Assembly: GCF_025717515.1 (NCBI RefSeq)
Contig: NZ_JAJIRN010000008.1
Coordinates: forward strand, 62,001-126,000
Direction: 5' to 3'
Origin: Roseateles oligotrophus
GTDB lineage: Bacteria; Pseudomonadota; Gammaproteobacteria; Burkholderiales; Burkholderiaceae_C
DNA length: 64,000 nucleotides
Positions 52,386 through 64,000 of the stretch are shown in pieces; positions within the stretch are counted from its first letter, which is position 1; the number at the start of each line of letters is the position of its first letter. Under the pieces are notes generated by a model. The model was not told the origin of the DNA. It ran no database searches and worked only from the letters and a program-made list of their open reading frames with translations. The translations under genes and the position numbers were made by a program.

Positions 52386-53936
52386 ATGAATTTGCAAGAT
52401 TTCACCGTGCGGGCCCGTTTGTATGCATTGGCGCTATTCGCCATGCTGATGCTGGGCACGGTGGCCGGCGCCGGCCTCTACAGCCTGAATCAGGCGCGTG
52501 CTTCTTTTGTGCACTTTGCCGAAGATGACGCAGCCGCCCTCAACATCGTCTCGGGCGTGCGAGCCAGCGTCGGCAATCTGCGCCGCTTTGAGAAAGACAT
52601 GGTGATCAATCTCGCGGATGAAAAAGCGATCGAGAAATACCGTGAGGATTGGGCCGGCGCCTACGCAGCGACCGTCAAGGGCCTGCACGACATGGCCAAG
52701 CTTGACCTGGAGCCCGAAACGCGCCGCCTCGATACCGACATCGACTCGCTGCTGGTTGTCTACAAGACCGAGATGGACGGTTTTATGAAACAACTCGGCG
52801 CCAAGGTCTTTGCCGACCAAGACGCGGCCAACAAGGCGCTGGACGCGGCTAAAAACGCGGTCCGCCCGATCGAACAGAAGATGAAGGAAATGGTCGAGTC
52901 GCTGGACAAAGCCGGCGTCAAGGCAGTGGCGTCGGCGCTCGATCATCAAGACAGCACACGCACGGTATTGATCATGGTCTCCTTGTTGGCGATGGTCTCG
53001 ATTGCGACCTTCACCTTCTTCAATATCCGCTCAATTTTGATTCCGCTGCAGGAGGTGCAGCGGACCACCGAGCGCATCGCAACTCAGGACTTGAGTGAAA
53101 AAATCAATGCCAAGGGCCAAAGCGAAACCGGCGATCTGATGCGCGGGGTGCAGGCGATGCAAGAGTCCTTGCGTGATGTGGTGGGCAATGTGCGCAATGC
53201 CACCGACGGCATTGCCACCGCCTCGGCCGAGGTGGCAGCCGGCGGTCACGACCTCAGCCACCGCACCGAACAAGCGGCCTCCAATCTGGAGGAAACCGCC
53301 TCGGCGATGGAGGAGTTGACGGCCAGCGTCAAACACAACGCCGATTCCGCCCGTCAAGCTAATCAGTTAGCGGTGGACGCCGCCAAGGTGGCCGAGCGTG
53401 GCGGCACCGTGGTGGGCGAGGTGGTCGACACCATGAAGCGCATCAGCGCGGCCTCGCACAAGATCAGCGACATCATTTCGGTCATCGACGGCATCGCGTT
53501 TCAAACCAATATCCTGGCGCTGAACGCGGCGGTGGAAGCGGCCCGAGCCGGCGAGCAGGGTCGCGGCTTTGCGGTGGTGGCCAGCGAGGTGCGCAGCCTG
53601 GCGCAACGTTCTGCCGAAGCCGCCAAGGAGATCAAGGGCTTGATCACCGCCAGCGGCGAGGCGGTCGATAACGGCGCACTGCTGGTAGAGCGCGCGGGCC
53701 AGACCATGCAAGAGGTGATCGGCTCGATCGACCGCGTCAGCAGCATCGTCGCCGAGATCAGCAATGCCACGGCGGAACAAAGCACCGGTATCGGGCAGAT
53801 CGGTCAGGCCATCACCCAACTCGACACGATGACACAGCAGAACGCCGCCTTGGTGGAGCAGTCGGCCGCTGCCGCGCAGAGCCTGCAGGTGCAGGCCGAG
53901 GACCTGGCCAAATCGGTGGCGGTGTTCAAGCTCTGA
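52386..53936 (+). CDS. Methyl-accepting chemotaxis protein (copy 1)
   Basis: 516 aa. TM1 is at about 10-32, a periplasmic four-helix-bundle ligand domain runs from about 33 to 188 ([13 protein letters not shown] is typical), and TM2 is near 190-210. A HAMP domain and the long signalling hairpin follow, with tip [26 protein letters not shown]. The C-terminus lacks the NWETF-type tether for CheR/CheB. It starts after AAGGAG at 8 nt. The next gene is a same-length paralogue. Confidence 0.95.
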
Positions 53937-53997
53937 ATTTGAGGCCGGGGTCAGATCTTGCCTTGAACAGCGCAGATGCCGAGTTAGCCGTGTAAAC

Positions 53998-54020
53998 GGG
54001 GGGGTATTTTGCCCCCCCCC
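53998..54020. other. G7/C9 hairpin between the chemoreceptor genes
   Basis: Seven G, the loop TATTTTG and nine C form a very stable potential hairpin 60 bp after the first receptor stop. There is no T-run afterwards. It may attenuate read-through, and the homopolymer runs could slip during replication, but they lie outside both reading frames. Confidence 0.45.
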
Positions 54021-54081
54021 TTCCGTGCGGGCAGCGGATCAAATATATTGCCCCACTGGTGTTCCACAAGGAGTGGTTTTC

Positions 54082-55632
54082 ATGAATCTGCAAGATTTCA
54101 CCGTACGAGCCCGTTTGTATGCCTTGGCGGGTCTCTCGATGATGATCTTGCTGATCGTGGGACTCAGCGGCCTCTATAGTTTGAATCAAGCCAAGAGCGC
54201 CTTCGTTCACTTTGTCGACAATGACAACCAGTCTTTGAATTACGTCTCCAAGATCCGTGCCGAGGCCGGTAATTTGCGCCGTTACGAGAAAGACATGGCG
54301 CTCAATCTCGACGACGCCGCAGCAGTCGAGAAATATCGCGCCGACTGGCAAAAAGCCTATGACGCGCTGCTCAAGGCCGAGAACCAACTGGCCAAGCTAG
54401 ATATTCCGCCCGAGGTGCAAAGTGCGCTCAAATCGATCGAGGAAGGGCTGAAGGCCTATAAGAGCGAAATGGACGGCTTCATGGCCAAGCTCGGCGAGAA
54501 GGCCTTTGCCGACCCAGCCACGGCCAACAAGGCCTTGGGTGCCGCCAAAAAAGCCATTCGACCGATGGAAGAGAAACTGGCCGAGTTGGTCGCCGCCATC
54601 GATAAGGATGCCGCTCGAGAGGTCGAGATCATCGCCACCAATGAGGTCAGCATCCGGCGCAGCTTGACCCTGACCTTGGTCGGTGGTGTGCTGGTGATTG
54701 GTGTTTATACCTTCTTCAATATCCGCTCCATTCTGGAACCCTTGAACGAGGTCAAGCTGTCGGCCGAGCGTATCGCCGAACAAGACTTGAGCGAGAACAT
54801 CGTCGTGCATGGCAAATGCGAAACCGGCGAGTTGCTGCGCGGAGTGAAGGCGATGCAGACCTCGCTGCGCGATGTAGTGGGCAATGTGCGCAGTGCAACC
54901 GACGGCATCGCTACCGCCTCGGCGGAAGTGGCCTCCGGCGGCCATGACCTCAGCCACCGCACCGAGCAGGCGGCCTCCAATCTGGAAGAGACCGCCTCGG
55001 CGATGGAAGAGCTGACGGCCAGCGTCAGGCATAACGCCGATTCGGCGCGGCAGGCAAATCAGTTGGCGGTCGATGCTGCGGCGGTGGCCAAACGGGGCGG
55101 CACCGTGGTGGGCGAGGTGGTCGCGACCATGAGCCGCATCAGCACTTCGTCCAACAAGATCAGTGACATTATTTCGGTCATCGACGGCATCGCTTTTCAA
55201 ACCAATATCCTCGCTCTGAATGCAGCGGTTGAAGCGGCGCGGGCCGGTGAACAGGGCCGCGGCTTTGCGGTGGTGGCGAGCGAGGTGCGCAGCTTGGCGC
55301 AGCGCTCGGCCGAAGCCGCCAAAGAGATCAAGGGCCTGATCACGGCCAGCGGGGAGAGCGTCGATGCCGGTGCGGTATTGGTCGGCCGGGCCGGCGAAAC
55401 CATGCAGGAGGTGATTGACTCGATTGGCCGGGTGGGCGCCATCGTGGCCGAGATCAGCCATGCCACCGGTGAGCAAAGCAGCGGTATCTCGCAGATCGGC
55501 TTGGCCATCGCCCAACTCGACACCATGACACAGCAGAACGCCGCTTTGGTCGAGCAGTCCGCCGCTGCGGCGCAGAGCTTGCAAGTGCAGGCGGACGAGT
55601 TGGCTCGCTCGGTAGCGGTGTTCAAGCTCTGA
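54082..55632 (+). CDS. Methyl-accepting chemotaxis protein (copy 2)
   Basis: 516 aa, identical in length and domain plan to the receptor just upstream. The cytoplasmic hairpin is nearly identical between the two, while the periplasmic four-helix bundle is clearly diverged (for example [20 protein letters not shown] here). This is a tandem duplication with ligand-domain divergence. It has its own AAGGAG ribosome site and again no C-terminal pentapeptide. Confidence 0.95.
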
Positions 55633-55915: not shown

Positions 55916-57250
55916 TCAATCAGGCGTGACCAGATCTACCTGCGCCAACGCCAATTGTCCCGCGCTATTGCGCTTGACCTTGTAGACAATGAAAGAGCCG
56001 GTGGTGATGTCTCCTCGTGCATCCCAGTCTGCCGCAGTTTTTGCGCCGTTGTAATCCCAATCCGCGCCTGGATTTTTCAGCGCAAGTGAAAATTGGCCCG
56101 GCATGATCTTCAAGGAATTGGCGCTGTCCGGTCGTGAAACCGGGCCCAGCCATTGGCCGATTGAAGCCTTGTCCGCGCTGCCCCCCGCCAGCATGGCCAA
56201 TGCGTAAAGATAGACTGCGTCGTAACCAGAGGGGCTGATGCCTACTTCGGGTGCGACGCCGTAAGCCTTGGTGTAGATGTCCGCGAAGGCCAGGTATTCG
56301 GGCCGTTTGGGGTTGCTGTCGGCACCCATGATTGTCATGCCCTCAACCACCGAGGCTTCTGCCGTCGAAACGAACTGGGCTGTGCTCAATGAACTGGCCG
56401 CATAGATCGCCGGTCTTGGCAAAGAGATGCCCAGTGCCATGTCCTTGCTCAGGCCCACGGCCTCGGCCGACTGGCCGGCAATATAGATGGCGTCAGGCCG
56501 GCCGTTGGCCATGGCCTTGGCCACCACGGCGGCAAAGTCAGCGGTCTTGCCTGCCGGGTAGGCCGACGCCGCCAAGATGGTGCCGCCTCGTTTTACAAAA
56601 GCGTTGCTGAAAGACTCGCTGTTCGAGAGTCCAAAACTGTCGTCGGAATGAATCATGACCACGGTCTGTTTGCCGTCTCGCCGGGCTATCTGTGCGGCAA
56701 CATTGCCGGAGAACGAGTCCGACGCGATCAAGCGGTAGAGCACATTGGGCGTCCCTCTGTCCATGGTGTCCAAGCGGGAGGTGCTGGGGCCTAGGGCAAT
56801 CACGGGCAGGCCGGTCTTGATGATGGTGGGCGCCAGCAATAAGACTTCGGCACTGGTCAATGGCCCGATGATGCCGATGCAGCCCGCATGGATCAAATCA
56901 TTCAATTCGCCAATCTGCGCATCGCTCCCCTCGGTCGTGCCGGCCTTGGTGTCGCGCACCATATAGCCCAGCGTTTTGCCGTTGACGCCGCCGGCAGCGT
57001 TGATCTCGTTGATGGCCAGTCTGATATAGCGCTCGCGCACATCGTAGTTGGCCGACGAGGTGCCGGTAAACGGCAAGAGCACGCCGATCATCAGATCGCC
57101 CTGAATGCCGGGGCGCATGCTGCCGGCCGCGCCCTCGATCTGGGCCGCGCTGCCCTCAACGCCACCGCCTCCTCCACAACTTGCCAGCAGGCCAGCTGCG
57201 CTCAGAATTGCCAGAGCGGCGACATGTTTGAGTCTGGAGTCGACTTTCAT
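55916..57250 (-). CDS. Lipoprotein substrate-binding protein of the branched-chain amino-acid (LivJ) type
   Basis: 444 aa from ATG 57250. The lipobox LLASC is followed by a Gly run, so it is a lipid-anchored periplasmic protein. The Peripla_BP_6 fold shows in GVLLPFTGTSSANYDVRERYIRLAINEINAAGG, IGPLTSAEVLLLAPTI, VMIHSDDSFGLSNSESFSNAF and PSGYDAVYLYALAML. No ABC permease or ATPase lies here. It begins 5 bp after the stop of a TonB-dependent receptor, so it is co-transcribed with that receptor and may serve as a sensor or as the periplasmic carrier of its ligand. Confidence 0.9.
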   Translation of the reverse strand: MKVDSRLKHVAALAILSAAGLLASCGGGGGVEGSAAQIEGAAGSMRPGIQGDLMIGVLLPFTGTSSANYDVRERYIRLAINEINAAGGVNGKTLGYMVRDTKAGTTEGSDAQIGELNDLIHAGCIGIIGPLTSAEVLLLAPTIIKTGLPVIALGPSTSRLDTMDRGTPNVLYRLIASDSFSGNVAAQIARRDGKQTVVMIHSDDSFGLSNSESFSNAFVKRGGTILAASAYPAGKTADFAAVVAKAMANGRPDAIYIAGQSAEAVGLSKDMALGISLPRPAIYAASSLSTAQFVSTAEASVVEGMTIMGADSNPKRPEYLAFADIYTKAYGVAPEVGISPSGYDAVYLYALAMLAGGSADKASIGQWLGPVSRPDSANSLKIMPGQFSLALKNPGADWDYNGAKTAADWDARGDITTGSFIVYKVKRNSAGQLALAQVDLVTPD

Positions 57251-57255
57251 GACGT

Positions 57256-59307
57256 TCAGTTCCAACGGTAGCGGTAGCTCAGGAGTGCGCTGCGCCCCCT
57301 GCCTGGGAAATCAACGCTGCCATAGCCGGGCTCGGAATAATTGGCGTTGAGGGCATTGTCCAGACGCAGTTGGACTTCATGGCTGTTGTATAGGACCTGC
57401 GTCCAGACCAAATTCAGGCGTGTGCTCGGGGCCAGCGAATAGGGCGTCAGGAAATTGGCAAAAGCATTGCTGAAACTGGCATGGCGTTTGGAAGCGTAGA
57501 GCAACTCGGTCGCCCATTGGCCAAATTTACCCGAATGCCAGCGCCACTCGGCGCGTACCGAATGCTCGGGGAATCGCTCGGGCGGCCTGACCAAATCGCC
57601 GACCAGCGGAATCGGGTCACGTTCGGTCATGTTCAATCCCGTCCAGGAGATGCCAAAGCGATGCGCGCCGTCTTCATAACGGACATCCAGCTCGGCGCCT
57701 TGGCCGGCAAAGCGGCCGCGGTTGACGGGTTGGTAATTGAGCCCGGTCTGCTGCAATTCGATCTTGTTTTTGACCTCGAGTTGGTAGGCATTGGCACTGA
57801 GCTGCAAATTCGGACTGGGCAGCCAGTTGATTTGAAACTCGCTATTGCGCGCGGTCTCGGCATGGAGCTTCAGGTTGCCGATCGCGTCGCCGCTGTAGAG
57901 TGGCTGGGCCAAGAGGTCAAACACGCTGGGCGCTTTGTAAGAGGTGCTCCAGATCAGCTTGGTGTTGAACTCTCGGCTGTATTCATACACGGCGGCAGCC
58001 CGCCAATTGGTGTTGCCGCCAAAGGTCTTGTGATCGTCCCGCCGCCAGTTGGCGCTCAGGCCCAACTTGTCGCTCATCTGCCAAAGGTATTGGGCGAACA
58101 CACCGGTGTTTGCCAAGCGCATGGCGGTGCTGGGTTTGCCACTCAGGCTGCTGCTGCCGTTGGGCGCCACCAGTAGCACTTGCATGCTGTCTTGATGGTC
58201 AACCGTGCGGTCGGCGCCAAAGCTCAGGCTGTGGTCTGCGTTCAGTGCTCCATTGAAATTGAGCCCCAGGTCATTGGCCAATGAGGACAACTCGCGCTTG
58301 GGGTAGCTGCTGGTGCTGGTCTCCAAGCGTTCTGTGGGCGAGATGCCGGAGCGGGCGACGTTCCAGCGGAACTTGGCCTGCCAACTCGGACTGATGTCCC
58401 AGTGGCTTTGCCAGCCGAATTGGGCGCGATATTGCGAGTAGCGATTCTTGTGGCTGAGTACGCCGAAGTCGAGGAACTCGGCCACGCTGTCCGTGCGCGA
58501 ATAGTTCAACTCAAGCTGGTGTTTGACTTCTTCGGTGTCGAAACTCGCGCGACCCAGGACCGACACCGGCTGCTGGTGCGCGTCCTGCGAATCGGCCCCT
58601 CGCAAGGCCGGTTTCGCGCCCAGCAAGGGCGAGCTGGCTGGCAGTCGCAGTCCGTTCAATTCGTAGTGCTCGGCCTGCACGGCGAACAGCAAGCCCAGGC
58701 GACCGTTCCCGCCGGCAATGCTGGCGTCCACACCGTTGGCGCTGCCAGCATAGGTGCGCAGTTGCGCGCTGGCATCTGTGGCGCCGACATGGTGCTTGCG
58801 CGTGACCACGTTGACGGTGGCCAAAAAAGCGTCGGCGCCATAGAGCGCCGATGCAGGCCCGCGTACCACCTCGATGCGGTCGATGCTGTTCATAGGCATC
58901 AAGGAGGGGTTGAGAAAGTTGCTGGCATCGGGGCGAAAGGCTTGCGGCTGGCCGTCGATCAAGAGCTTGATCTGGCGGTTCCAGCTGCGCTGCCCGCCAA
59001 ACAAACCGCGCACGCCGATGTCTTGAGAGCCTTGCGCATCGACGCGGTAGAGCCCAGGCACGCGAGCCAAGGCGTCGGCCACCGAGCGATCGCCCCAGGC
59101 CTCGATTTCCTCGCGCCCAATTACCGAGACGATCGCTGGTGCGCGTGCCAAGCTGGTGGCCACCAAGCTGGCCGACTCGACCCGGATGTCGGCCAACTGT
59201 TCCAAAGACATGCCAAACAAGCCCGGCACGATGGGCTCAACGGGGGGGCTTTGAGCGAGCAAGCCTGCAGGCAATAAAGCCAGCAGTCCTAAACACGGCT
59301 TTTCCAT
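57256..59307 (-). CDS. TonB-dependent outer-membrane receptor
   Basis: 683 aa with a short signal peptide (MEKPCLGLLALLPAGLLA). The plug runs from about 45 to 165: TSLARAPAIVSVIGREEIEAWGD, LARVPGLYRVDAQGSQDIGVRGL, IDGQPQAFRPDASNFLNP, IDRIEVVRGPASALYGADAFLATVNVVT. The barrel follows and ends in aromatic residues (SALLSYRYRWN). The plug recalls CirA and the receptors that partner YfiR-like proteins. It is transcribed from a promoter at 59347-59375 together with the LivJ-type lipoprotein. Confidence 0.92.
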   Translation of the reverse strand: MEKPCLGLLALLPAGLLAQSPPVEPIVPGLFGMSLEQLADIRVESASLVATSLARAPAIVSVIGREEIEAWGDRSVADALARVPGLYRVDAQGSQDIGVRGLFGGQRSWNRQIKLLIDGQPQAFRPDASNFLNPSLMPMNSIDRIEVVRGPASALYGADAFLATVNVVTRKHHVGATDASAQLRTYAGSANGVDASIAGGNGRLGLLFAVQAEHYELNGLRLPASSPLLGAKPALRGADSQDAHQQPVSVLGRASFDTEEVKHQLELNYSRTDSVAEFLDFGVLSHKNRYSQYRAQFGWQSHWDISPSWQAKFRWNVARSGISPTERLETSTSSYPKRELSSLANDLGLNFNGALNADHSLSFGADRTVDHQDSMQVLLVAPNGSSSLSGKPSTAMRLANTGVFAQYLWQMSDKLGLSANWRRDDHKTFGGNTNWRAAAVYEYSREFNTKLIWSTSYKAPSVFDLLAQPLYSGDAIGNLKLHAETARNSEFQINWLPSPNLQLSANAYQLEVKNKIELQQTGLNYQPVNRGRFAGQGAELDVRYEDGAHRFGISWTGLNMTERDPIPLVGDLVRPPERFPEHSVRAEWRWHSGKFGQWATELLYASKRHASFSNAFANFLTPYSLAPSTRLNLVWTQVLYNSHEVQLRLDNALNANYSEPGYGSVDFPGRGRSALLSYRYRWN

Positions 59308-59346
59308 GGGGCGATGCCTTCGGCCGTAGCCGGCGTAAATGGGGGC

Positions 59347-59375
59347 AGTATTGACATATTGACACCCTGAGTCAA
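59347..59375 (-). promoter_or_regulatory. Promoter of the TonB receptor operon with tandem 8-bp repeat
   Basis: On the minus strand, TTGACT, a 17-bp spacer and AATACT lie about 40 bp before the receptor ATG. The spacer and -10 hold two adjacent copies of TGTCAATA (plus-strand positions 59349-59364), a plausible operator. A looser repeat, GAGTCAAGTCGAGTCA, overlaps the -35. Confidence 0.6.
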
Positions 59376-59437
59376 GTCGAGTCAGGTGTAAAGAACTGTT
59401 GCTTTTTTGGGGCCGTAAATTGAGCCTTCATTGGGTT

Positions 59438-59466
59438 TTGGCGTCAGCCTAACTTTGACCTAATAT
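59438..59466 (+). promoter_or_regulatory. Candidate promoter of the DUF3369-EAL regulator
   Basis: TTGGCG, a 17-bp spacer and TAATAT on the plus strand, about 60 bp upstream of the regulator ATG and back-to-back with the receptor promoter. Confidence 0.5.
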
Positions 59467-59527
59467 GGCATGCTTGTTGAGCTCAACGCGGGCTTGACGA
59501 AATTCATTGCTGGGAAGTGGATGAACC

Positions 59528-61750
59528 ATGTCCGATGAAGACCAACTCTTCCTGACCGATTCACCTCCAGACGCCGAGCCGGCCGGGCAAGCGCCTTGGC
59601 GGGTTTTGGTGGTGGACGACGATGAAGAGGTGCACCGGGCCACCGACTATGCGTTTCGCCGCACACTCGTATTGGGCCGCCCGCTGATCATGCTGCACAG
59701 CTATTCGGGCACCGATGCGCGTGCCTTGCTGGCACAGGATCGTGACTTCGCGCTGGTGTTGCTGGATGTGGTGATGGAGGACGCGCAAGCCGGGTTGATG
59801 CTGGTGGAATACATCCGCCGCGACTGTCAAATGCAGACGACCCGCATCATTTTGCGCACCGGTCAACCTGGCTCGGCGCCCGAGTTGCCCATCATCGAAG
59901 CCTACGACATCAATGATTACCGTACCAAGAGCGAGTTGACACAAACCAGGCTGATCACGGCGGTGACGGCGGCGCTGCGCTCATATGATCAGATTCGCAT
60001 GATTGCAGAGAGCCGGCGTGGGCTCGAGTTGATCGTGCGCTCCTCGGCCGATCTGATGGAGCGCCACGCGATGCTCAGCTTCGCCGAGGGCGTGTTGACC
60101 CAGTTGGCCGCGCTCTTGGGGCTGCCGCGTGATGGCCTGGTTTGTGTGCATCGGGGCGATGAAAAGCGCGGCGAACGCGCCGACACGTTTTACGTCATCA
60201 GCGCTGGCGGACAACTATCGGATTACCTCAGCTGCACATTGGACAAACTCACCGACACGGCAGTGCGCGAGGCGGTGAGCGATGCGCTGCGCCAGCGCCA
60301 GCATCAGTTCACTGTTTCCTCCACCGTCTTGTATCTATTTGCGGATGGTCACGAGGCTGCTGTCTATATGCGTTCGCATCAGCCATTGCTGCCCTTGGAT
60401 CGGCAGTTGGTGGAGGTTTTTGCGACCAATCTGTCGGCCTATTTTGGCAATGTGCATTTGATCGGCGAGCTGAATCGCCTGGCCTTCTTGGATGGGCTGA
60501 CCGGCTTGGCCAATCGGGTTCAGTTCATCAAGGATATTGAGACCCAACTAAGCGCTCAATTGGTCGGGAAAGAAGAACCGCAGGCCTTGCTGCTGCTCGA
60601 CGTCAAGCGCTTTTCTGAGCTCAATAACGGTCTCGGCCATGAGGTCGGAAATGCCTATTTGAAGGCCATAGCCCAGGGCTTGCGGGCGGGCTTCTCGGCC
60701 CAAACCCGGGTGGCTAGGCTGGGCGGCGACGTATTCGGTCTGGTCGGGTCTGCGGCCGAGCTTGCGCCTGAGCGGGTGCGATCGTTGTTTGAGGGTGGTG
60801 TGCTGGCCGGGGAGCATCGCCTGGTGGTGGCCTTTGCGGCCGGCTATTGCGCACTGGAAGGCCATCGGGGTTCCGGGCTTGCCGCCTTGCGCCGCGCGAA
60901 TATCGCTTTAGCAAGGGCCCGGCTTAGTGCTCAGGCGCAGCGGGTGAGTTTTGATCCGATCATGGAAGAGCAGACGGCTCAGCGCCTAGCACTGTTGCGG
61001 GCCTTGCGTCGTGACATTCAGGCGCAGCGACTGGAGCTTTGGTATCAGCCCCAGCTGGACCTGCAGAGCGGTCGCATGATTGGGCTGGAAGCCCTGATGC
61101 GCTGGCCGGACGGCACGGGCGGCATGGTGGCATCGCCGGCGGTATTTGTGCCGCTGGCCGAGCAGGCCGGTTTGATCGTTGAGATGGGTCTGTGGGCCTT
61201 GCACCGGGCGGCCGAAGATTGGGTGCATTTGCAGGGCGTTGCCGATGCGCCTCCACGCATCAGCGTCAACGTCAGCATGCCGCAGTTCCGCAGCGGTGAG
61301 CTGCAGGGGCAGGTGGCAGAGGTGCTGGCGCGCCACGCCTTGCCCGCCGGCACGCTGGAGCTGGAGATCACCGAGAGCATCGCCATGGATGACCCTTGCT
61401 TGGTGATTTCGACCTTGACTGCACTGCGTGAGCAAGGTGTGCGGGTGGCGATGGATGATTTCGGCACCGGCTATTCGTCCTTGTCGCAACTGCGTACCTT
61501 GCCCATCGATGTGCTGAAGATAGACCGGGCTTTTGTCAGCCAGATCGGTGAGCGACAGGGCGAGATGTTTGTAGAAACGGTGCTCGCCTTGGGTAAGCGT
61601 ATCGTCGCGGAGACCGTCGCCGAGGGCGTCGAAACCCCTCTGCAGGCCGAATTTCTGCGCCAACATGGCTGCCACATCGCGCAAGGCTGGCTCTATGCCA
61701 AGGCAATGCCGCTGCAAGAATTGAAGGCTTGGATGGCGGCTCGAATCTGA
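59528..61750 (+). CDS. Response regulator with DUF3369, degenerate GGDEF and EAL domains
   Basis: 740 aa. The receiver domain has the acidic cluster VVDDDEE, phosphoacceptor Asp80 in LVLLDVVMED and Lys134. A DUF3369 (GAF-like) domain covers about 170-310. The GGDEF domain (from LDGLTGLANRVQF) has GGDVF instead of GGDEF, so cyclase activity is doubtful. The EAL domain (490-735) is intact: GLEALMRW, Asn in NVSMPQF, ELEITES, DDFGTGYSSLSQLRTLPIDVLKID. The likely activity is c-di-GMP hydrolysis controlled by phosphorylation. It converges on the histidine kinase operon, whose stop is 6 bp away. Confidence 0.94.
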   Translation: MSDEDQLFLTDSPPDAEPAGQAPWRVLVVDDDEEVHRATDYAFRRTLVLGRPLIMLHSYSGTDARALLAQDRDFALVLLDVVMEDAQAGLMLVEYIRRDCQMQTTRIILRTGQPGSAPELPIIEAYDINDYRTKSELTQTRLITAVTAALRSYDQIRMIAESRRGLELIVRSSADLMERHAMLSFAEGVLTQLAALLGLPRDGLVCVHRGDEKRGERADTFYVISAGGQLSDYLSCTLDKLTDTAVREAVSDALRQRQHQFTVSSTVLYLFADGHEAAVYMRSHQPLLPLDRQLVEVFATNLSAYFGNVHLIGELNRLAFLDGLTGLANRVQFIKDIETQLSAQLVGKEEPQALLLLDVKRFSELNNGLGHEVGNAYLKAIAQGLRAGFSAQTRVARLGGDVFGLVGSAAELAPERVRSLFEGGVLAGEHRLVVAFAAGYCALEGHRGSGLAALRRANIALARARLSAQAQRVSFDPIMEEQTAQRLALLRALRRDIQAQRLELWYQPQLDLQSGRMIGLEALMRWPDGTGGMVASPAVFVPLAEQAGLIVEMGLWALHRAAEDWVHLQGVADAPPRISVNVSMPQFRSGELQGQVAEVLARHALPAGTLELEITESIAMDDPCLVISTLTALREQGVRVAMDDFGTGYSSLSQLRTLPIDVLKIDRAFVSQIGERQGEMFVETVLALGKRIVAETVAEGVETPLQAEFLRQHGCHIAQGWLYAKAMPLQELKAWMAARI

Positions 61751-61756
61751 GCTTGC

Positions 61757-63322
61757 CTAGAGCTGATTCAAGGGCGCCCGGCGCGGAAATCTCAGCTCGA
61801 ACGTGGTGCCTTGGCCGACTTGGCTGCGCGCTTCGATGACGCCGCCCAAGGGGCGAATTGCCAAGCTATGCACGACATGCAGGCCCAGCCCAGAGCCACC
61901 CTGCCCAAGTCGGGTGGTGAAGAAGGGCTCGAAGATACGGTGCAGATGCTCTGGCGGGATGCCCGCGCCATGGTCGCTCACTTGCAGGGTCAGCCAGCTA
62001 TTGCCTGCGTCCGATCCTTGCTCGTCGATGGACTCCCGCACCTGCACCTCGATTCGCCCGCCGCCAATCGGCTCCAGACCATGGCGCGCGGCGTTTTCGA
62101 TCAGATTGCTGACGATCTGTGTCAGCGCACCGGGGTAGCTATTGCAGCGTATGCCTGGTGCGCAGTCCAGCGCGACCTCAATCGGCCGGTGCTTCATACC
62201 GGGTGCCAGCAGGGCCATGCAGTCATCCAATACATGGCGCAGATCAAAGTCCATGCGCGCCTCGCTGGTTTCATTCACCGCCACCGACTTGAAGCTTCGC
62301 ACCAGCGCAGCTGCGCGCTCCAGCGACCGCGACACGATGCCCGAGCCCTCATCCACCGAAGCCATGAATTCCTCCAGCCCGCGCCGACTCAACGAGTTGC
62401 CGGTGATTTGATCGCGCATTTGCTGCGTACTCTTGTTCAGGCTGGTCGCCGCCAGCAAGGCGTTGCCGATCGGCGTATTCAGCTCATGCGCAACGCCGGC
62501 CACCACATTGCCCAGAGCGGCCAGTTTCTCGTTTTGCATCAGCAGCGTCATTGCCCGCTCCAACTCTTGACTGCGTTGCTGCACGCGCTGCTCCAGCAAA
62601 TCATTGGCGGCCTGAAGCGCATGATCGCGTTCGCCAACGACCCCCAACATGCGGTTGAATTCATCCGTCAGTTGGCCGATTTCGTCGCCGCTGCTTTTCT
62701 GCACGCGCAGCGAGAAATTGCCGGTGCGGCCGACCTCGCTGGCCGCCGCGCTGAGGCGCTCCATCGGCTGACTGACCAGGCGACGCGCCGCCCACAGCAG
62801 CGCAGCGCCGAGCACCAACACGCCGAGGGCCAAGGCGCCGAACATGATGCCGTATTGCGGCAGGCGCTGTATCAGCGGTGGCATCTGCACGCGAATCCAG
62901 ACCCGGCCAAGCTCGCGCCCGTCGCGCAACACCGGCAGGCTTCGGCTCGCTTTGTTGGCCTGGAACTGGCTGCCGCTGGGCGGCATAGTGGCCGGGTTGA
63001 CTGGCTGGCCCTCAATGGGCCAAAAGGCAAAAACCGAACCGTCGCTGCGATAGAGCGCCCCGGCATCAACGCCTTCATACAGGCGCAGAAAGCCCAGGTT
63101 GTCTTGAGCTTGCTTGACATCATCAAAGTCCAAAGCGGCCTGATTGATGTCGGCCATCACCTTGGCGACTGACTCAAGTTGGCGTTCCAGTCTTGGCCGG
63201 AAAGTTGTGGTTTCGTAGCTGAGCACGGCCAAGCCGGCCAGCAGCAGTGCCAAGATCGTGCCCAACACCATTGCCAGCAGCAGCTTGCGCTGCAGGGGCA
63301 GGGATGTGTATCGCCAAGCCAT
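61757..63322 (-). CDS. CHASE8/HAMP sensor histidine kinase
   Basis: 521 aa. TM1 is at about 13-35. The periplasmic domain (36-155) carries LESVAKVMADINQAALDFDD, LRLYEGVDAGALYRSDGSVFAFW and ELGRVWI, the pattern of the CHASE8 domain of the diguanylate cyclase YfiN/DgcN. TM2 is near 160-180, then HAMP, a coiled coil, a HisKA-like H box GVAHELNTPIGNAL, and an HATPase domain with NLIENAARHGLE, DHGAGIPPEH and GGSGLGLHVVHSLA. The ATG overlaps the YfiR-like stop (ATGA). The likely partner is the convergent DUF3369-EAL regulator. Confidence 0.92.
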   Translation of the reverse strand: MAWRYTSLPLQRKLLLAMVLGTILALLLAGLAVLSYETTTFRPRLERQLESVAKVMADINQAALDFDDVKQAQDNLGFLRLYEGVDAGALYRSDGSVFAFWPIEGQPVNPATMPPSGSQFQANKASRSLPVLRDGRELGRVWIRVQMPPLIQRLPQYGIMFGALALGVLVLGAALLWAARRLVSQPMERLSAAASEVGRTGNFSLRVQKSSGDEIGQLTDEFNRMLGVVGERDHALQAANDLLEQRVQQRSQELERAMTLLMQNEKLAALGNVVAGVAHELNTPIGNALLAATSLNKSTQQMRDQITGNSLSRRGLEEFMASVDEGSGIVSRSLERAAALVRSFKSVAVNETSEARMDFDLRHVLDDCMALLAPGMKHRPIEVALDCAPGIRCNSYPGALTQIVSNLIENAARHGLEPIGGGRIEVQVRESIDEQGSDAGNSWLTLQVSDHGAGIPPEHLHRIFEPFFTTRLGQGGSGLGLHVVHSLAIRPLGGVIEARSQVGQGTTFELRFPRRAPLNQL

Positions 63323-63876
63323 CAGTGGCCCTCCTCATAGTTTCTGAGCGCAAGTTGCTGCAGCTTGGCCGAAACTTTCAGCCCCGAGCGTTCGGCCGCT
63401 TTGGTGTTCAGCTCGAAACGCAGCTGCTCATCGCGTAGCAGCAAGCCGATGATGCCGCCGCGATCGAGAAAACCTATGCCTGGGCCTATGGTCAGGATGG
63501 GCAGAGCCCCGAGTGGACGCAAGGGAGCGGTATTGCCCTCGGGCGTGTAGAGCAAGTGGACATGGGCGGCTTGCAAGATGTTGTCAATGCGCTTGACCTC
63601 CACCGGGCGGCCTTGCAGTCGCCCGGTCTTGAAGCCGCTTTCCAGCAAGCGCAACATCGGCTCGTCGTCCATCACGCCGATGACGAAGGGTGCGGTCGCG
63701 TCGGCAAATGCATTCGCCGGCCATTCGACATAACTGCCAAAGGCGGCGACATACTTGGCCCGCGCGGTCTCGGGAGTCATCCGTTGCTGAGTCGCCTGGG
63801 CATAGCTTGGAGCTGTCGTGAGCGCCAAGCACAACAGACACGAAAATCCAAGGAGAGCAATCGCGGTAAATTTCAT
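63322..63876 (-). CDS. YfiR-like periplasmic protein (DUF4154)
   Basis: 184 aa with a signal peptide (to APSYAQA). The YfiR family pattern is clear: KYVAAFGSYVEWPANAF, FVIGVMDDEPMLRLLESG, GRPVEVKRIDNI, AHVHLLYTP, ILTIGPGIGFLDRGGIIGLLLRDEQLRFELNTKAAERSGLKVSAKLQQLA. In Pseudomonas, YfiR binds the periplasmic domain of YfiN and represses it. The mature chain here has no Cys, so the disulfide control described for P. aeruginosa YfiR cannot operate. It is translationally coupled to the CHASE8 kinase. Confidence 0.92.
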   Translation of the reverse strand: MKFTAIALLGFSCLLCLALTTAPSYAQATQQRMTPETARAKYVAAFGSYVEWPANAFADATAPFVIGVMDDEPMLRLLESGFKTGRLQGRPVEVKRIDNILQAAHVHLLYTPEGNTAPLRPLGALPILTIGPGIGFLDRGGIIGLLLRDEQLRFELNTKAAERSGLKVSAKLQQLALRNYEEGH

Positions 63877-63907
63877 GGAGCGTCTAAGCTGAAGCGATTA
63901 TGCGGCT

Positions 63908-64000
63908 TCAGCTCAGAAATTTGAGCACAATGCGTGCGCCGGGCTGGGCCGACTCAATGCTCAGGCGGCCCTGCAATTGGCGCGCCAGCGAGGCCACCAA
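63908..64000 (-). CDS. C-terminus of a histidine kinase (cut by window edge)
   Basis: The last 30 codons of a minus-strand gene entering from the right: LVASLARQLQGRLSIESAQ, then PGARIVLKFLS and stop. This is the closing part of an HATPase domain, as in HWE/HisKA_2-type or hybrid kinases. It lies 31 bp upstream of the YfiR-like gene, so it is probably the preceding gene of that operon. The 5' part is outside the window. Confidence 0.7.
   Translation of the reverse strand: MVASLARQLQGRLSIESAQPGARIVLKFLS

Follow-up and report, generated by a model that had tools for sequence, protein, structure and literature searches.

A candidate trans-envelope signalling set of TonB receptor, YfiR-like protein, CHASE8 histidine kinase and EAL regulator, co-inherited in Roseateles oligotrophus and three relatives

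Results

The five-gene locus

The DNA analyzed here, called the window below, is a stretch of 64,000 nucleotides from Roseateles oligotrophus (assembly GCF_025717515.1, contig NZ_JAJIRN010000008.1, positions 62,001 to 126,000). Open reading frames and Pfam matches place five genes at its right end, which encode a YfiR-like periplasmic protein, a histidine kinase, a response regulator, a TonB-dependent receptor and a lipoprotein. A sequence-only reading had given their domain content as DUF4154/YfiR, CHASE8-HAMP kinase, receiver (REC)-DUF3369-GGDVF-EAL, TonB receptor and lone binding lipoprotein, and our Pfam searches and reading frames bear this out.

The YfiR-like protein (63322..63876, minus strand) matches Pfam PF13689 (DUF4154; E 6.2e-30, 104.6 bits, cut-off 24.9) and, under the cut-off of 125 bits, NCBIfam NF053591 (110.6 bits); its aligned domain contains no cysteine. 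The gene overlaps that of the kinase by 1 nt in a TGATG junction, which is also found in three orthologous loci; the earlier description of this coupling as ATGA was wrong. The kinase (61757..63322, minus strand; 521 amino acids) carries a CHASE8 domain at residues 43-143 (PF17152; E 1e-11, 45.4 bits, cut-off 27), a HAMP domain at 180-226 (Pfam; 42.6 bits, cut-off 25) and a HATPase_c domain over the Pfam cut-off, with HisKA under it (20.9 of 26.9 bits). It scores 175.1 bits against the NCBIfam model HK_near_YfiR_like (NF053592), under the cut-off of 194. From the position of the motif AHELNTPIGN, the phospho-acceptor is predicted to be His279 (codon 62486..62488, minus strand).

The regulator gene (59528..61750, plus strand) is convergent with that of the kinase, and 6 nt separate the two stop codons. 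Its DUF3369, GGDEF and EAL domains score over the Pfam cut-offs, and its receiver residues are D80 (codon 59765..59767, plus strand; kept in all four aligned orthologues, the window included), T111 and K134. The cyclase motif is degenerate, reading GGDVF in the window (residues 399-403; 60722..60736, plus strand) and SGDVF or TGDVF in the three orthologues, so the cyclase half of the regulator is probably dead. In an alignment to structure 4rnh, which places the EAL motif at E521-L523 (61088..61096, plus strand), the residues that we take to be catalytic (E521, N581, E613, D643, D644, K664 and E699) are all present.

The receptor (57256..59307, minus strand) consists of Plug and TonB barrel domains and is CirA/BtuB-like, with the colicin I receptor and BtuB as its best solved relatives. 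Pfam at E up to 0.1 gave only Plug and barrel, and no STN signalling domain. Against the NCBIfam model TonB_dep_TOL0244 it reaches 65.9 bits, where the cut-off is 645. The lipoprotein (55916..57250, minus strand; Pfam Peripla_BP_6) has LLASC at the end of its signal peptide. Its listed reading frame is 55916-57265 (minus strand), and the listed overlap with the receptor gene rests on an upstream TTG; since the receptor stop lies 5 nt from an ATG, the lipoprotein probably starts at 57250.

Co-inheritance of the five genes

Orthologues were sought in 39 genomes, namely the own genome and 38 relatives, 17 of them from the same genus. Those of yfiR (68-83% identity) occur in three relatives only (G003, G005 and G008), which also hold the orthologues of the kinase (75-83%) and of the regulator (71-85%). 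At the thresholds applied, E up to 1e-60 for the receptor, with up to 30 candidates scored per genome, and E up to 1e-30 for the lipoprotein, these two proteins were likewise found in the own genome and these three only. All three relatives have the five orthologues in the gene order and orientation of the window, so that in each of the four genomes in which any one orthologue is present all five are. No other of the 38 relatives holds the complete set at the cut-offs used; more distant kin, in these and other genomes, reach at most 36% identity for yfiR and at most 47% for kinase and regulator.

The upstream neighbours of yfiR vary. In the own genome a REC-HisKA_2 gene, mostly outside the window, lies 31 nt upstream on the same strand; in G003 and G005 the position is taken by a divergent REC-HK-REC-REC gene, and G008 has neither. 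Because the five orthologues are kept while these neighbours change, the five genes travel together: they are inherited as a block, which is more than a chance association. The sequence-only reading had made its proposal depend on conservation of the cluster in relatives, and the cluster is conserved, but in only 3 of the 17 same-genus genomes.

YfiR loci in other genomes

In Pseudomonas aeruginosa, YfiR represses YfiN (PMC3375315) and is sequestered at the outer membrane by YfiB (PMC4655355, PMC4887326). We surveyed the surroundings of 78 YfiR genes: 5 in the own genome, 42 in relatives (every match of the window YfiR-like protein outside the own genome) and 31 in an even class sample (every PF13689 match outside the own genome, one of them under the family cut-off). 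The class sample comprises 143 genomes including the own, and its PF13689 matches fall in 17 other genomes. Distances were measured from YfiR domain coordinates, profiles made from the surveyed loci themselves served to label the neighbours, and orthologues were counted singly, so the counts below cannot be read as independent events.

At 52 of the 78 loci a TonB receptor is encoded no more than 700 bp from the YfiR domain, on the same strand in 49 (own genome 4/5, relatives 31/42, class sample 17/31). The own genome has five DUF4154 genes and four CHASE8 proteins, and every CHASE8 gene clusters with a DUF4154 gene. The outputs of these CHASE8 proteins are the window kinase, a hybrid kinase (L007), a GGDEF domain (L009, where the receptor gene sits between the DUF4154 and CHASE8-GGDEF genes) and a HisKA_2 kinase (L010); the fifth YfiR gene (L008), next to a divergent TonB receptor gene, lacks a CHASE8 partner. 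Of the five YfiR genes, four adjoin one of the genome's 47 Plug proteins, and the chance probability of four or more is about 6e-7 if 5000 genes are assumed.

A CHASE8 partner was found within 700 bp at 44 loci and within 3 kb at 11 more. Kinases, hybrid ones included, are the commonest output among these 55 loci (31), followed by GGDEF (17) and GGDEF-EAL (6), one being unlabelled; in the class sample alone the output is a kinase in 13 of 18. Conversely, the class sample without the own genome has 30 CHASE8 domains that pass the Pfam cut-off, and 17 of these adjoin a DUF4154 match when compared by hand.

A YfiB-like OmpA gene, confirmed by Pfam in each case, stands at 7 of the 78 loci, always with a GGDEF output, and at none of the 78 together with a TonB receptor (Fisher p 2.5e-4). 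That the two share no locus in this survey suggests that TonB receptors may take the place of YfiB as the input to YfiR. All seven OmpA loci come from the relatives, six of them from the same genus, and so are not independent; the OmpA profile, which was made from these seven and may therefore miss more distant OmpA genes, matched at none of the 31 class loci. Neither kind of neighbour was found at 19 loci, of which four belong to the window cluster and the orthologous clusters, with the receptor 4 kb away, and three lie within 720 nt of an end of the examined stretch.

Several other arrangements were seen in the survey. At three same-genus loci (L123, L128 and L129) a YfiR gene without CHASE8 partner adjoins the gene of a PEP-CTERM protein that Pfam marks as phytase-like, which may point to an organophosphate ligand; in L123 and L129 YfiR is flanked on its opposite side by a TonB receptor, and L128 stops at a contig edge. 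In L083 (3626-7909), a TonB receptor, YfiR and a 4HB methyl-accepting chemotaxis protein (MCP) are consecutive, possibly a direct link from receptor to chemotaxis. Tandem TonB receptor-YfiR pairs in L107 and L095, and two receptors ahead of one YfiR in L084, suggest that receptor repertoires have expanded around YfiR.

Predicted docking of the YfiR-like protein to the kinase

The YfiR-binding site of YfiN lies in its AAVVF motif, and the YfiN-binding side of YfiR is formed by hydrophobic residues 160, 162 and 183 (Malone et al. 2012, PMC3375315). In the CHASE8 alignment the counterpart of AAVVF in the window kinase is AALDF (residues 62-66; codons 63125..63139, minus strand). Across this alignment, kinases included, Phe66 is present in 54 of 54 sequences, Asp68 in 53 and both alanines in 22, and the seven OmpA-linked GGDEF proteins read AAV(V/M)F. 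The counterparts on the YfiR side are L152, F154 and L175, as placed by a weak profile alignment to YfiR 4zhu (E 0.009). Distance matrices of YfiR and CHASE8 from the 55 pairs correlate with r 0.89, and with 0.40 for distant pairs (best shuffle 0.14 and 0.18, respectively), a correlation that could also arise from common linkage and descent. Together, the alignments support a YfiR-CHASE8 pair in which docking residues are kept on both partners. The coupling of the YfiR-like protein to the kinase proposed by the sequence-only reading is strengthened to this extent, and the two proteins are predicted to touch.

Redox control through a disulphide has been discussed for P. aeruginosa YfiR (PMC3375315, PMC4655355, PMC4887326). 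Among the 78 surveyed YfiR proteins 66 have both cysteines of the pair, nine have neither and three have one. The window protein, with G67 and V106 at the positions of Cys71 and Cys110 (equivalence judged by eye from the surrounding residues), and its three orthologues are without the pair, and such control is thus unlikely there.

Pairing of the kinase with the EAL regulator

The synteny of kinase and regulator is identical in the four genomes, and related combinations occur elsewhere. In L101 a single operon joins a TonB receptor, YfiR, a CHASE8 kinase (HEINTPI) and a REC-DUF3369 protein. YfiR, a CHASE8 kinase and a REC-GGDEF-EAL protein are consecutive in L092 and L104, and likewise in L112 with a hybrid kinase; these three kinases are without the HE[IL]NTP motif that the window kinase has. 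Starting from the regulator, we examined 9 of 19 other matches, two genomes (G035 and G018) being chosen partly for a kinase match known nearby. Three of the nine REC-DUF3369-GGDEF-EAL loci (L278, L279 and L282) have an HE[IL]NTP kinase adjoining or one gene off, without YfiR, and a fourth (L281) has one about 5 kb away; in the other five the examined stretch contains none. On this limited and partly selected evidence, the pairing of the kinase's transmitter with the receiver seems to be older than the YfiR/CHASE8 input that was set upon it.

Receptor and lipoprotein

The YfiR-linked receptors do not form one clade on a tree of plug domains (approximately unbiased test, p 1.3e-5). The window receptor falls outside their main group, beside a long branch that makes its place unsure.

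The motif MSLEQL, encoded at 59194..59211 (minus strand), precedes a TonB-box-like segment at the N terminus of the window receptor. A first pattern for this motif matched 4 of the 5 YfiR-associated receptors of the own genome, in which 44 of 47 receptors were scored; the pattern, then widened to take in the fifth, matched all 5 and none of the 42 other receptors. The widened form matched 6 of 7 linked versus 1 of 10 unlinked receptors in G037, the one unlinked match having no YfiR within about 6 kb, and 1 of 2 versus 0 of 8 in G027. As a docking signal for YfiR the motif was rejected after seven further genomes gave 6 of 9 linked versus 8 of 45 unlinked matches. Some of these eight are stray, and clear motif receptors without an adjoining DUF4154 match occur in G155 and in G175, where they carry MSLEEL-type motifs (L249, L255 and L262). 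The plug tree offers four independent pairs, of which an average of 2.7 agree and none disagree (median p 0.25). Being unspecific in the further genomes, the motif marks a kind of receptor and not YfiR binding as such.

The lipoprotein gene has as neighbours the receptor gene and two chemoreceptor genes, with no ABC genes. The chemoreceptor genes, in tandem and of the 4HB type (Pfam), lie just past it at 52386-55632 of the window. In L132, too, the lipoprotein gene is followed by an MCP-like gene, and none was detected in the examined stretches of L131 and L133. Elsewhere in the own genome (G000, contig C52, about 61600-64000; L221:4141-6462), a TonB receptor is split into three open frames and is apparently a pseudogene.

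Discussion

The window encodes a real, conserved and coherent signalling set whose parts are known. We consider it probable that the five genes form a trans-envelope system in which the state of the receptor controls YfiR, YfiR restrains the kinase and the kinase drives the EAL phosphodiesterase. The first step would be uptake or recognition of a ligand by the TonB receptor, possibly together with the lipoprotein. The receptor would act on the YfiR-like protein, which would serve as a brake on the kinase, bound to the AALDF face of CHASE8. Once the brake was removed or altered, the kinase would phosphorylate Asp80 of the REC-DUF3369-GGDVF-EAL regulator, whose EAL domain would then degrade cyclic di-GMP (c-di-GMP). 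Gene content, synteny, and docking and catalytic residues are conserved, the genes are co-inherited, and each pairwise link of the set recurs in other genomes; the contacts of YfiR with kinase and receptor, the phosphotransfer, the direction of control and the ligand are what we infer from them.

Several observations weigh against this interpretation. The receiver of the regulator falls just under its Pfam cut-off (28.2 of 30.2 bits). An EAL or DUF3369 regulator lies within 3.5 kb of just 7 of the 15 non-hybrid CHASE8 kinases, and four of these seven belong to the window cluster and the orthologous clusters. Nearby TonB receptor and OmpA genes are both missing at 14 of the 31 YfiR loci of the class sample, and at two of these 14 a contig end lies within 720 nt. 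Of the 52 TonB receptor-YfiR pairs, 18 lack a CHASE8 partner in reach, and it is therefore probable that YfiR acts on other partners too. AlphaFold2 models from four-row alignments were poor for YfiR and the kinase (mean predicted local distance difference test scores 47.6 and 52.4), and every match listed in a fold search with the poor kinase model had a query template modelling score of 0.31 or less.

The YfiR-kinase pair might also work as proposed with the kinase aimed at another receiver, for example that of the REC-HisKA_2 protein, and the EAL regulator serving some other kinase. This is unlikely, although the REC-HisKA_2 gene does stand directly upstream of yfiR on its strand, the kinase as query drew 156 first-look candidates in its own genome, and six of the nine similar regulators elsewhere, a further point against our interpretation, have no HE[IL]NTP kinase adjoining or one gene off. 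In none of the three relatives, however, does the REC-HisKA_2 gene adjoin yfiR, whereas the EAL regulator is in place in all three, and the operon in L101 joins a CHASE8 kinase to a REC-DUF3369 protein. For the step from kinase to EAL regulator, the sequence-only reading has thus gained a gene pairing, seen in the four syntenic genomes, in L101 and, for kinases of the HE[IL]NTP class, at three of the nine REC-DUF3369-GGDEF-EAL loci; phosphotransfer itself is predicted from that pairing.

As for the receptor, the window differs from most linked pairs in that 4 kb and an opposite-strand gene, that of the regulator, separate receptor and yfiR. Receptor and lipoprotein could on this account be an ordinary uptake pair and incidental neighbours of a YfiR that senses another periplasmic cue, such as a small ligand or envelope stress. 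The position of the receptor on the plug tree, uncertain as its long-branched neighbour makes it, would fit, as would the weak binding of vitamin B6 and tryptophan by P. aeruginosa YfiR (PMC4887326). We nevertheless find an incidental neighbourhood improbable, given that all five genes occur together in 4 of 4 genomes having any orthologue and that the YfiR genes of this genome adjoin TonB receptors far above chance. Co-inheritance and the receptors beside 52 of 78 YfiR genes thus support the receptor as the input proposed earlier, while the ligand and the sign of its effect are conjectural.

With the sign reversed, so that YfiR activated the kinase or the kinase were mainly a phosphatase, ligand would raise c-di-GMP; sequence does not fix the sign and DUF3369 is a domain of unknown function, but YfiR represses YfiN in the system studied (PMC3375315) and the docking residues match, which leaves this version with little likelihood.

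The proposed set, with YfiR as brake and the EAL regulator as output, resembles P. aeruginosa YfiBNR (TpbB) in its DUF4154 repressor, its CHASE8-HAMP membrane protein, the AAxxF motif and the hydrophobic YfiR residues. It differs in that the output consists of kinase domains rather than GGDEF, that the OmpA profile for YfiB finds no match within 2.5 kb of the window yfiR, a TonB receptor being nearby instead, and that the window YfiR is without the cysteine pair. The kinase output, presented as a surprise by the sequence-only reading, is not one: Malone et al. 2012 (PMC3375315) describe homologues of YfiN whose output is GGDEF-EAL, HPT, MCP or a sensor histidine kinase, and they term the YfiR-PAS/HAMP core modular. 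Their passages on Yfi-like systems name no REC-DUF3369-EAL partner, and the word TonB does not occur in the main text. The NCBIfam models NF053590 (TOL_0244 receptor), NF053591 (TOL_0243 YfiR-like) and NF053592 (HK_near_YfiR_like) have successive accessions and describe the same three kinds of protein, although all three window proteins score under the curated cut-offs. With swapped outputs published and such models available, the YfiR-kinase core is not new.

FecA-type TonB-dependent transducers signal through an STN domain and an anti-sigma/sigma pair. They likewise use a TonB receptor as signal input, whereas the window set has YfiR and a kinase, and no STN domain was found. Among the open-licence papers listed by literature searches, no title or abstract describes a link between TonB receptors and YfiR, which is weak evidence of absence. 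As far as the literature was searched, the survey counts, the co-inherited five-gene set, the REC-DUF3369-EAL link and the YfiR without cysteine pair are new.

We also put forward, more tentatively than the scheme for the window and as a possibility somewhat short of an even chance, that the outer-membrane input to YfiR brakes is usually a TonB receptor and not YfiB. Such a receptor, having no STN domain, would capture or release YfiR at its periplasmic face and so feed cyclases, phosphodiesterases, hybrid kinases, chemoreceptors or, as here, a kinase that drives an EAL protein. TOL_0244, a distant relative of the window receptor, is sevenfold up on a long-chain alkane compared with Tween 80 (PMC6304351), and by analogy some TonB receptor-YfiR systems may sense hydrocarbons.

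If this more tentative view is true, sensors of one type serve in a single genome both to make c-di-GMP (L009) and to destroy it (the window). It would also provide a route for receptor-triggered behaviour, as reported for the alkane receptor OmpS (PMC6304351). The window set would place on a path that could lower c-di-GMP a sensor otherwise known from a cyclase. The set offers a concrete and testable proposal for the way in which a TonB receptor that has no signalling domain could report imports to the cell, and with TonB receptors beside 52 of 78 sampled YfiR genes, one reconstituted example would inform many genomes.

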